Assembly: GCA_015060385.1 (NCBI GenBank)
Contig: SUYO01000006.1
Location: 1 to 64,000 of the forward strand
Direction of reading: 5' to 3'
DNA from: Bacteroidales bacterium
Lineage (GTDB): Bacteria; Bacteroidota; Bacteroidia; Bacteroidales; UBA932
DNA length: 64,000 nucleotides
Shown here: piece after piece, positions 211 to 59,109 of the stretch
Position numbering within the stretch: the first letter of the stretch is position 1
Layout of the letters: every line of letters begins with the position of its first letter
Made by a program: the position numbers and the translations under genes
Notes under the pieces: model-generated
Databases searched by the model: none
Told to the model about the DNA's origin: nothing
Seen by the model: only the letters and a program-made list of their open reading frames with translations

Positions 211-542
211 TCCGTGATATACCCGGTTTTCCCGGACAGGTCAGCGAAATACAGCATTGTGTCCGTAAAATCAGCGGTTTTTCCGGACAGGTCAGTCAAA
301 TTGCATATGTTGTCCGTGAAATCGGCGGTTTTTCCGGATGGGTCAGCGAAATTCAGCATTGTGTCCGTGAAATCGGCGGTTTTCCCGGATGGGTCAGTCA
401 AATTGCATATGTTGTCCGTAAAATCAGCGGTTTTTCCGGATGGGTCAGTCAAATTCAGCATTGTGTCCGTGAAATCGGGGGTTTTCCCGGATGGGTCAGC
501 GAAATACAGCATTGTGTCCGTAAAATCAGCGGCTTTTCCGGA
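211..542. repeat. Array of seven 51-bp-phased TCCG/TCCGGA units (REP-like)
   Basis: TCCG boxes at 211, 262, 313, 364, 415, 466, 517 (exact 51-bp steps), each followed 20 bp later by (T/C)CCGGA. Two linker subtypes occur (...cagcattgtg and ...gcatatgttg). Confidence 0.95.
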
Positions 543-2939: not shown

Positions 2940-4111
2940 GAAGGCTGACCGTCATATTGGTGTCGCTGATCCTGTCCGTCCTGCCGCTGATTGCCGGTCA
3001 GGCCGGCAATGACGTGCATCACAGCAATGACGTGCATCAGGTCGGTGACGTACATCACGGCAATGGCGTGCTTCAAGGCAATGACGTGCATCAGGCAGGT
3101 GACGAGGGAAAGGTCGATGTCGCCGAGATGATTTTCGGGCACATTGGCGATTCATACGGCTGGCACATAACGGAGTGGAACGGCCGTCATGTCGTGATTC
3201 CGCTGCCGTGCATAGTCCGCAGCAGTACCGGATGGCATGTGTTCATGTCTTCGAAGATCGAACATGGACACGAGTACGAGGGCCTTTTCATCGCGCAGGA
3301 AGGCCGCTACGAGGACAAGATCGTCGAGAGGGGAGCGGATGGCGGACTGGTCCGTCCGTTCGATATATCCATAACGAAGAATGTGGCTTCCCTTATCTTC
3401 GGAAGCGCACTTCTGGTCATTCTGGTGCTTTCATGCGCCCGCTGGTACCGCCGGAATGATGCGATGGAAAAGGCTCCGGGAGGTTTTGCCGGACTGATGG
3501 AGATGATGATCATGATGGTCCATGACGACCTTATCAAGGATTCGATAGGACCGGGCTACAGGAAGTATGCACCATATCTTCTGACTGCCTTCTTCTTCAT
3601 CTTCCTGAACAATCTTCTGGGTATCGTTCCGTTCTTTCCGGGCGGTGCGAACCTTACGGGAAACATAGCGGTGACAGGTGTGCTTGCGATATGTACCTTC
3701 CTTGCGGTGAATCTTTTCGCTGACAGACATTACTGGAAGGAGATATTCTGGCCGGACGGTCCGATCTTCCTTAAATGTCCGATACCGATTCTTCAGGTCA
3801 TAGAGGTGCTGGGTATGTTTACAAAACCTTTCTCGTTGATGGTCAGGCTGTTCGCTAACATAATGGCCGGTCATGCGATGATACTCGGACTTGTGTCAGT
3901 GATTTTCGTGGCGGCGAAGATAGGACCGGTGATAGGAGGGTCGATGACGGCGATCACCATGGTATTCGGTGTGTTCATGGACTGTCTTGAACTGCTTGTG
4001 GCATTCATTCAGGCCTATGTGTTCACGATGCTTTCGGCCGTGTTCATAGGATTGTCGCGTCCGGGCGACCAGCATGAAGACACATCCTGCCATCCCGGAC
4101 ATAATGCTTGA
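2936..4111 (+). CDS. atpB: F0F1 ATP synthase subunit a
   Basis: Membrane protein with PFSLMVRLFANIMAGHAMILGL and LVAFIQAYVFTMLSAVFIGL; start overlaps atpC stop. Confidence 0.95.
   Translation: MRRLTVILVSLILSVLPLIAGQAGNDVHHSNDVHQVGDVHHGNGVLQGNDVHQAGDEGKVDVAEMIFGHIGDSYGWHITEWNGRHVVIPLPCIVRSSTGWHVFMSSKIEHGHEYEGLFIAQEGRYEDKIVERGADGGLVRPFDISITKNVASLIFGSALLVILVLSCARWYRRNDAMEKAPGGFAGLMEMMIMMVHDDLIKDSIGPGYRKYAPYLLTAFFFIFLNNLLGIVPFFPGGANLTGNIAVTGVLAICTFLAVNLFADRHYWKEIFWPDGPIFLKCPIPILQVIEVLGMFTKPFSLMVRLFANIMAGHAMILGLVSVIFVAAKIGPVIGGSMTAITMVFGVFMDCLELLVAFIQAYVFTMLSAVFIGLSRPGDQHEDTSCHPGHNA
3005..3094 (+). repeat. 18-bp tandem repeat inside atpB encoding (G/S)NDVH(H/Q)
   Basis: Five consecutive 18-bp units (ggcaatgacgtgcatcac variants) translate to GNDVHH SNDVHQ VGDVHH GNGVLQ GNDVHQ. 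Confidence 0.9.
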
Positions 4112-16269: not shown

Positions 16270-16974
16270 ATGAAACGCAAGGAAATATTGCAGGCGCCGA
16301 TGGGGGAGACAAAGGTCCTTCTCCATACCTGCTGCGCCCCGTGCTCATCAGCAATCATCGAAGCCCTGCTTCAGAACGGAATCACCCCTGTGATCTATTA
16401 CTGCAATCCGAACATATTCCCGAGAGAGGAATATGAGATCCGCAAGAACGAGTGTACCAGGTATGCCGAGTCCCTCGGGCTGGAGATAGTCGATGCCGAC
16501 TATGACCATGAAAACTGGCTCGAGGCGGTAAGAGGTCTTGAAAAGGAACCCGAAAGGGGAGGACGATGCCTGAAATGCTTCAAGCTCCGCCTTCTCCGTA
16601 CTGCAGAATATGCCCGTCAGAGGGGAATCAGGGTGATCACTACCACCCTTGCATCTTCGCGCTGGAAATCGCTTGACCAGATAAACGAAGCAGGCCTCTG
16701 GGCCTGCAGCAATATCTCATCCGGAAATACTGCTGTTTCCCCGGATAAGGTATCAGAAATCAGCAACATATCCGGAAACAACGAGAAAAATCCGGACAAC
16801 ACTGTCGTATGGTGGGACCGTAACTGGAGAAAAGGCGGGCTCCAGGAGCGCCGCCTTCAGATAATCAGGGAATACGGTTTCTACAACCAGCTGTACTGCG
16901 GCTGTGAATTCAGTGCCTTGACGACTACCTCGCATCCGGACCTGACTTCTTCCGGAATCTCGCAGGAATCATAG
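16270..16974 (+). CDS. queH: Epoxyqueuosine reductase QueH, carrying an internal repeat-encoded segment
   Basis: LLHTCCAPCSS, YCNPNIFPREEYEIRKNE, WRKGGLQERRLQIIREYGFYNQLYCGCEFS. Confidence 0.9.
   Translation: MKRKEILQAPMGETKVLLHTCCAPCSSAIIEALLQNGITPVIYYCNPNIFPREEYEIRKNECTRYAESLGLEIVDADYDHENWLEAVRGLEKEPERGGRCLKCFKLRLLRTAEYARQRGIRVITTTLASSRWKSLDQINEAGLWACSNISSGNTAVSPDKVSEISNISGNNEKNPDNTVVWWDRNWRKGGLQERRLQIIREYGFYNQLYCGCEFSALTTTSHPDLTSSGISQES
16720..16796. repeat. Two 51-bp-phased TCCGGA units inside queH
   Basis: Boxes at 16720/16740 and 16771/16791: 20-bp internal and 51-bp unit spacing, as in the other arrays. Confidence 0.93.
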
Positions 16975-26186: not shown

Positions 26187-26255
26187 TTTTGTCATTCTGA
26201 ACCCCTTTTGTCATTGTGAACCTCTTTTGTCATTCTGAACGAAGTGAAGAATCTC
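26187..26255. repeat. TTTTGTCATTCTGAAC x3 (19-bp period) followed by GAAGTGAAGAATCTC
   Basis: Copies start at 26187, 26206, 26225. The last continues as gaacgaagtgaagaatctc, resembling the common interspersed GTCATTCTGAGCGAAGCGAAGAATCTC element. Confidence 0.8.
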
Positions 26256-52575: not shown

Positions 52576-52708
52576 CTTGTCCGGAAACCCCTGCTCAAAT
52601 CCGGACAAGTCAACCTTTTGCGCATGTTTGTCCGGAAAAACACAGTTTTTTCCGGACAACATGCCTGAATTTGCACTCACGTCCGGATTTCGGGCACTAT
52701 ATCCGGAC
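52576..52708. repeat. Three 51-bp-phased TCCGGA units abutting the RAYT 3' end
   Basis: TCCGGA at 52580/52600, 52631/52651, 52682/52702. Outer arms TTGTCCGGAAA...TTTCCGGACAA; the middle unit has 13-bp perfect arms. Confidence 0.95.
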
Positions 52709-52710
52709 AG

Positions 52711-53643
52711 TCAGCCTATAAACATTTCATTCAACAGAGAAACATCCAGTTTCAACAGCCGTCTGAGCTGCTGGTTGCTTGCATTGTACTTGAAATGCAG
52801 TTCTTTGGCAATCCTTATCCTTTGGTCAGGAGAAAGGGCTGACAATTGTCTTACATTGAATTCCTCTGCAGAATATCTTGAGGCAACAGCATAGAGCTCA
52901 TCATCAGTGAGGAACACGGTGTCTTTCAGCCTGGATGCAATCTCACTGAATGCTTCGACATTTTTAGTAAGAGAGTTGAAGTAACTTCGGGGATCGTTGA
53001 AGAGACTCTCGCCGAGACTTACATCGCAGAACGATGGGATATATGCTCTTTCACCGTGAAATTTCAGAGCCCCTAACCTTGAGATGTCTCTTACATGTGC
53101 ATATGCCCTTCTGCTGTCATATGTGAGGTCATTGAAGCTGACTGCGGGTATGGATTTCAACAAAGGGTTGAAGTAGGCAATGCCGCTGCCCCACGGATAA
53201 TTATATGGTGTATATGATGACTGTGATACATATGCATTCCTATGAGTGTATATGATTTCGTTTCTAAGTGCTCTAAGATCCTCTATCGGAATTATTTCGG
53301 CCGTGAAGCTCTCCCAGTCAATTATGCGCCCGGACCGTCTGAAGATCCGTTTCATCCTTCCCTTGAAGTCTTCAAACAGTCCCATACATGCTTCCTTCTG
53401 TCCGCAAAGTATCTTGTGGACATGGTTTGACATCAGTTCGAAGGCAACGATTCTGACGCCAGGCTTCCTGCATGCTGATACGGACAGCAGGTTCATGCCT
53501 AAGTCAAAGTCTGTCCCTGATGTGAAGATATTCTGCATCTTTGTCCCATCTGTGCACAGATGCCAGAATGGTCCTTCCTGTAAAAACAGGGCTTCGCATA
53601 TCCTTTCCTTCTCAGCGAAGGAAAGCGATTGATTGTATTTCAT
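52711..53643 (-). CDS. REP-associated tyrosine transposase (RAYT; Y1/HUH transposase with C-terminal HTH-like region)
   Basis: VAFELMSNHVHKILCG (HUH), EIIYTHRNAYVSQSSYTPYNYPWGSG (Y1 Tyr and RAYT-like YPW motif), C-terminal SPDQRIRIAKELHFKYNASNQQLRRLLKLDVSLL. Start placed at 53643 because upstream codons are repeat readthrough. Confidence 0.85.
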   Translation of the reverse strand: MKYNQSLSFAEKERICEALFLQEGPFWHLCTDGTKMQNIFTSGTDFDLGMNLLSVSACRKPGVRIVAFELMSNHVHKILCGQKEACMGLFEDFKGRMKRIFRRSGRIIDWESFTAEIIPIEDLRALRNEIIYTHRNAYVSQSSYTPYNYPWGSGIAYFNPLLKSIPAVSFNDLTYDSRRAYAHVRDISRLGALKFHGERAYIPSFCDVSLGESLFNDPRSYFNSLTKNVEAFSEIASRLKDTVFLTDDELYAVASRYSAEEFNVRQLSALSPDQRIRIAKELHFKYNASNQQLRRLLKLDVSLLNEMFIG

Positions 53644-53660: not shown

Positions 53661-53737
53661 TCCGGGAATCAGTTTGTTTTTCCGGATATACGATAGAAAG
53701 TTGGAGTGTTGTCCGGATTTTAGTGGCTGTTTCCGGA
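53661..53737. repeat. Two 51-bp-phased units upstream of the RAYT start
   Basis: TCCGG(G/A) at 53661/53681 and 53712/53732. Confidence 0.92.
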
Positions 53738-54087: not shown

Positions 54088-54217
54088 GCCGTGAAATCAG
54101 TCAAATTTCCGGAGAAAAATACTTTTGAACCTATGTTGTCCGGAATCTGTCAGGAATTTCCGGACAAATGTGCTGAAAAGAGGGTTCTATCCGGTTAATG
54201 CTTATGTTTTCCGGACA
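54088..54217. repeat. Three 51-bp-phased units upstream of susC copy 2
   Basis: Boxes at 54088 (GCCG)/54108, 54139/54159, 54190/54210. Confidence 0.92.
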
Positions 54218-59026: not shown

Positions 59027-59109
59027 TGTCCGGAAATCCCTATGGAAATCCGGACAAGTCGTTCTGAAACAGTAGTTTGTCCGGGAATCCAAATGGTTTT
59101 CCGGACAAA
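59027..59109. repeat. Two 51-bp-phased units downstream of susD copy 2
   Basis: TCCGG at 59029/59049 and 59080/59100; arms TTTGTCCGGGAA...TTTTCCGGACAAA. Confidence 0.93.

Follow-up and report, generated by a model that had tools for sequence, protein, structure and literature searches.

Two units of a dispersed family of hairpin repeats lie in frame within queH, a gene of the window (the whole stretch of 64,000 nucleotides that was analysed), and the queH genes of three related species carry two or three such units. The history that best accounts for this, with a probability of roughly 0.8, is that a two-unit hairpin array of the family was inserted into queH and was kept in a tolerant loop, where it would form a neutral, flexible linker in an enzyme that stays active, the units probably being mobilised by a RAYT-like transposase. 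The REP-like array would have entered the gene at the start of a surface loop, and would have been retained because neither the array nor any of its 51-bp steps disturbs the reading frame and because the QueH loop tolerates extra residues. The RAYT-like HUH transposase encoded elsewhere in the window would move, or would once have moved, the units as single-stranded hairpins, and the number of units in queH may later have changed by slippage, recombination or new insertion.

Table 1. Positions of queH, of the repeat units and of the candidate transposase gene in the window
Feature	Position	Strand	Evidence
Variant-unit array (TCCGTR...TCCGGA), 51-bp period, after the 5S rRNA end	211..542		TRF period 51, 6.3 copies
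queH, epoxyqueuosine reductase QueH, 234 aa	16270..16974	+	PF02677 E=2.4e-59; AF2 model vs 7LC5
Expanded QueH loop, helix 135-150 to W-NWRKGG motif, +27 aa vs common 11-aa loop	16714..16812	+	Alignment, model
Repeat unit 1, in frame, encodes SGNTAVSPD; boxes TCCGGA 16720, CCCGGA 16740	16720..16745	+	Profile 18.0 bits
Repeat unit 2, in frame, encodes SGNNEKNPD; boxes TCCGGA 16771, 16791	16771..16796	+	Profile 12.4 bits; DNA hairpin z = -3.66
Three repeat units, 51-bp period, one side of RAYT gene	52580..52707
RAYT-like HUH (Y1) transposase gene, candidate partner of the repeats	52714..53643	-	PF01797 E=0.026; 4ER8 fold match
Two repeat units, 51-bp period, opposite side of RAYT gene	53661..53737
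Two intergenic repeat units	54139..54215
Two intergenic repeat units	59029..59105

Repeat units within queH

The family profile, the conserved Cys motifs and the fold all identify the queH product as a QueH protein. Its AlphaFold model (mean pLDDT 83) resembles QueH of T. maritima (7LC5; E=1.8e-12, TM 0.89 on the target) in a fold comparison, and in the alignment the HTCCAPC, RCLKCF and YCGC motifs are kept, the invariant Cys/His/Trp motifs are intact and no stop interrupts the frame. QueA and TGT are present in the genome, and no QueG, the alternative enzyme, was found in it, the assembly being 75% complete. From its sequence, the queH product looks functional. The 3' part of the gene shares 94 bp (16881-16974) with the 3' end of a lipoprotein-like ORF that converges on it, and the C-terminus encoded there (ALTTTSHPDLTSSGISQES) differs from the ..EFSMRKD of relatives. 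A pair of TCCGGA words in the same region (16935/16951) was rejected as a repeat unit, with a spacing of 16 bp and a score of 4.9 bits that falls within the shuffle range.

The preliminary description of this DNA had proposed a pair of REP-like units inserted in frame in queH, with boxes at 16720, 16740, 16771 and 16791. The boxes are found at these positions, spaced by 20 bp within a unit and with a period of 51 bp between units. Scored with a profile that avoids circularity by being built from 14 units outside queH, both units (18.0 and 12.4 bits) exceed the maximum of 9.4 bits reached over 1000 codon shuffles of the gene, which bears out an in-frame pair belonging to a dispersed family. They encode SGNTAVSPDKVSEISNISGNNEKNPDN inside the loop. 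The repeats had been located correctly, although 'SGN' had been counted as a normal part of QueH, whereas unit 1 starts at the Ser-Gly of 'SSGN' (TCC GGA, 16720). A repeat search of positions 16600-16900 reported nothing, because the units have only short boxes in common. When mapped onto the predicted structure, a check that had been suggested, the insert forms a low-confidence surface-loop coil (pLDDT about 49-78) that runs from the helix at residues 135-150 to a strand near residue 180.

The loop is rich in Ser, Asn and Gly and CCGG words are common in the window, so that TCCGGA-like boxes might be thought to result from chance or from biased codon use in a low-complexity Ser/Gly/Asn loop, without any insertion of units. 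Beyond the result of the codon shuffles, this origin is already contradicted, and left with almost no probability, by the exact 20/51 spacing of the four boxes, by the recurrence of this arrangement in metH and between genes, and by a jump in loop length, relative to relatives, of the size of the units.

The repeat family and its candidate transposase

The word TCCGGA occurs 63 times in the window against an expectation of 22.3 +/- 5.0, a count reached by none of 100 shuffles, and pairs of it are in excess at distances of 51, 20, 102, 71 and 31 bp. The family was searched in 784 kb including the window, or 44% of the assembly. Profile hits of at least 10 bits numbered 32, of which about 30 are convincing, distributed in 14 arrays whose neighbouring units are 51 bp, or a multiple thereof, apart. 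All but two of the 14 arrays lie outside conserved genes, and the 51-bp period also holds in intergenic arrays, where the reading frame does not matter. Two intergenic units fold as strong hairpins (z = -7 and -10), while the hairpins in coding sequence are weaker and have decayed, so that a single unit of the queH pair, and likewise of the metH pair, folds only weakly. Two matches in other loci were set aside as chance, one in L047 (13884), within a long ORF that is unrelated and differently flanked, and one in L048 (13353). The window also harbors short tandem repeats of 19 bp (TTTTGTCATTCTGAACCCC) and 18 bp, at 26187-26240 and 3004-3097, respectively.

In the broad sense of a REPtron, REPs are imperfect palindromes of 20-40 nt present in many copies, mostly intergenic, with a flanking RAYT gene. 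The family has all these features, including units on both sides of the RAYT-like gene. Classical REPs are further defined by a GTAG/GTGG or CGTC tetranucleotide at the foot of the hairpin; by inspection, none of the listed units carries such a tag, and the feet are mostly TTG, TAT or similar before TCCGGA. Since the tag is absent, the family, as its units read, is REP-like in the broad sense and stands outside the GTAG and CGTC superfamilies. The earlier label 'REP-like' holds to that extent, as a hairpin unit flanking a RAYT gene, but not in the classical sense.

The RAYT-like protein has the HUH and catalytic Tyr motifs and the Y1 fold expected of its family, with NHVH at residues 73-76 and a downstream Tyr132; H74, H76 and Y132 are invariant in 15 of 15 aligned RAYT-like sequences. 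Its match to PF01797 is weak (E=0.026) and below the Pfam cut-off, and NF047646 (REP_Tyr_transpos) matches seven of the 15 family members, the window protein not being among them. In its model (pLDDT 88.6), the best structural match is 4ER8 (probability 1.00, E=2.8e-3, TM 0.53 on the target), which is an E. coli RAYT bound to a REP hairpin, followed in the match list by IS200/IS605 transposases. Relatives of the protein are found in 52 of the 61 genomes of the genus, and in two other genomes orthologues with 56% identity are flanked by 51-bp arrays of related boxes. More generally, the strongest repeat lag in the flanks of RAYT-like loci (L085-L114) is 50-52 bp or double that value in 22 of 30 cases, compared with 16 of 298 control stretches. 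The sequences of the boxes differ among these loci while the lag is constant in the 22, and therefore the geometry of the repeats appears tied to the transposase family. A conserved repeat geometry would thereby be linked to one family of transposases across a large set of uncultured gut bacteria. Because the units flank the RAYT gene, and given the known behaviour of RAYTs, we infer that this protein moves them.

Distances of 20, 31 and 51 bp are close to two, three and five helical turns, most arrays are intergenic and some adjoin gene ends. The units might accordingly be DNA or RNA sites of the host, either for proteins binding on one face of the helix at 20/31/51 bp or as mRNA hairpins, that spread by recombination and not by RAYT. 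This is unlikely in view of the units that flank the RAYT gene and of the excess of 50-52 bp repeats, with different boxes, at RAYT-like loci over controls. Mobilisation by the RAYT remains the preferred reading, and similar pairs are described in Bacteroidetes, where RAYT/TnpA-REP subclasses 2.4 and 2.6 comprise HUH-Y1 proteins with an NH[LIV]H motif and, on their flanks, hairpin repeats that also occur at other places in the genome (PMC6006769). The repeats of subclass 2.6 are reported there as 'atypical secondary structures', and REPs of subclass 2.4 are found in frame inside the transposase gene. The window protein shares with these subclasses the HUH-Y1 type, the NH[LIV]H motif and the flanking hairpin repeats with genomic copies, but it has about 310 aa instead of about 180-190, its Tyr motif is YTHRNA instead of Y...NP, and it scores below the Pfam cut-off; 51-bp arrays and queH insertions do not figure in the account given there of subclasses 2.4 and 2.6 (PMC6006769).

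The QueH loop among relatives

The window belongs to a Bacteroidales genome, whose nearest named relatives are Candidatus Cryptobacteroides and many uncultured MAGs from ruminants and caecum; the genus is assigned by way of these relatives. QueH was compared at 107 loci from two collections, some of which are present twice. Between 'EAG' and 'W..NWRKGG', the loop has 11 aa in 55 of the 107 loci and 38 aa in the window gene, in line with the earlier statement that QueH homologues have only a short loop at this place. The insertion had been predicted to measure 23-27 aa and to be absent from close relatives; the size is right, at 27 aa, and orthologues mostly have the 11-aa loop, but SG..PD loops occur in three other species. 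The loop of G021/RGIG7439 has 37 aa and two units, and those of RGIG1649 and RGIG8943 have 60 and 66 aa, respectively, and three units each. In all four species the units encode SG.....PD with a step of about 17 residues, and these counts of 2, 2, 3 and 3 agree with the claim that a period of 51 bp, or 17 codons, is frame-neutral. As the same type of loop is common to the three other species, the insert of the window gene is, on this comparison, neither unique nor recent. The net gains of 81 bp in the window queH and of 78 bp in G021 fit the length of a two-hairpin array, 77 bp when measured across its outermost boxes, which supports insertion of such an array. The junction ..[IV]SSG[NK] is common to three species, which are not grouped on a single-gene tree with many weak forks.

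Loop lengths among relatives range from 10 to 95 aa, with unrelated sequences, and many of the long loops differ wholly from the SG..PD units. Comparing the loops of orthologues had been proposed as a check; most are indeed of 11 aa, but length alone is not diagnostic, as many long loops consist of other repeats. The L140 type of loop corresponds to a dispersed stretch of 140 bp, with 10 matches in its own genome and five in G026, and the loop of L041 contains two copies of one stretch that has a further short match elsewhere in the L041 genome. From these sequences, the QueH loop is a genus-wide hotspot that has been filled repeatedly by other, unrelated dispersed repeats. Loops of 80 aa (L140) and 15 aa (L141) belong to sisters in the tree, and those of L136 (63 aa) and L129 (22 aa) are separated by a core dS of only 0.17; the loop therefore gains and loses material fast.

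Several observations concern individual loci. The element of about 140 bp is in frame in the QueH loops of L140, L143, L138 and L136, where it encodes RRISAAPL.SARCS.NIEA...SRLGV; in L140 and L143 it lies between long direct repeats, and copies are found in G085, G026, G086, G087, G007, G021 and G032. In L043, no stop separates QueH from a following dihydropteroate synthase-like sequence (MGIVNLTPDSF), and the resulting frame of 475 aa looks like a QueH-FolP fusion. In L038, QueH breaks off within the loop discussed here and continues into a tyrosine-recombinase-like (XerC-like) sequence, by fusion or by an assembly join.

Retention of the insert in several species separated by a core dS above 1, its position next to the conserved W-NWRKGG motif and the frequency of long loops in one clade might suggest that it has been taken into use, with selection keeping a loop that binds tRNA or a partner or that tunes QueH. 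Against G021, however, dN/dS is 0.061 in the core and 0.72 in the loop of the window gene, and against G021 and two other relatives it is 0.05-0.06 and 0.45-0.87, values that are rough because the core dS exceeds 1. By these estimates, strong purifying selection acts on the QueH core and the loop evolves nearly neutrally. The wide range of lengths with unrelated sequences, the low confidence of the model in the loop and the 11-aa loop of L133, a relative inside the same clade, also speak against a recruited function, which is quite improbable. At this one site, a single tRNA-modification enzyme thus exists in natural variants that carry 0, 2 or 3 units, or other repeats. Such a series allows one to test how selfish DNA becomes part of a protein, and whether a period divisible by three aids the survival of repeats inside genes.

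In-frame palindromes in other systems and the metH linker

In-frame insertion of palindromes is already known from REPs and Rickettsia elements, and the queH case is a variant of it. REPs inside ORFs have been described as often being dimers or groups that encode 20-30 aa and are thought to be tolerated in loops or linkers, and in recB of Xanthomonas different REPs occupy about the same site in two species (PMC3733652, BMC Genomics 2013). The units of queH resemble these intragenic GTAG/CGTC REPs in being short palindromic repeats in frame inside ORFs; they differ in the absence of the tag, in the 51-bp tandem period and in the phylum, and, relative to the cases presented there, in that one enzyme loop is struck repeatedly by several unrelated families across a genus (PMC3733652). 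In Rickettsia, selfish palindromes have become peptides, read in frame, within housekeeping proteins that are unrelated to one another (Ogata et al., 2000, 2002, cited in PMC10969869). The passage from selfish palindrome to in-frame peptide is the same here, but the Rickettsia elements, as summarized in that source, are single and of about 150 bp, whereas the present units are 26-bp hairpins that recur at 51 bp, by multiples of 17 codons, and have a RAYT-like gene nearby (PMC10969869). A literature search, in which subscription journals were thinly covered, found neither queH described as a target nor 51-bp arrays reported for the genus.

A second in-frame case occurs in the same genome, on C27, in an open frame of 1296 aa that reads as MetH by its GGCCGTTP and NVGERTNV motifs. 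Two family units occupy the linker that separates its first domain from the second, in the SG..(T/P)D frame as in queH and with a 17-residue step. The length of this linker is 59 aa in both G000 and G021, against 36-42 aa in most relatives. A preference of the units for the SG..PD frame was considered and dropped; the two cases, queH and metH, prove nothing, and across the family each of the three frames is open about as often as the others (22, 23 and 18 of 32).

A broader model, which we consider possible and put forward tentatively, is that the repeat geometry of about 51 bp, equal to five helical turns or 17 codons, is dictated by the RAYT family whatever the box, that this codon-compatible period allows the arrays to enter proteins and to lengthen or shorten there in 17-residue steps, and that the QueH loop and the MetH linker are standing landing pads for unrelated repeat families. 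The MetH linker may be a second hotspot, because in two more distant relatives, L204 and L207, it is also long (50 and 85 aa, respectively) and of other sequence; one of these two linkers contains a CCCCCGG..CCGGGGG palindrome.
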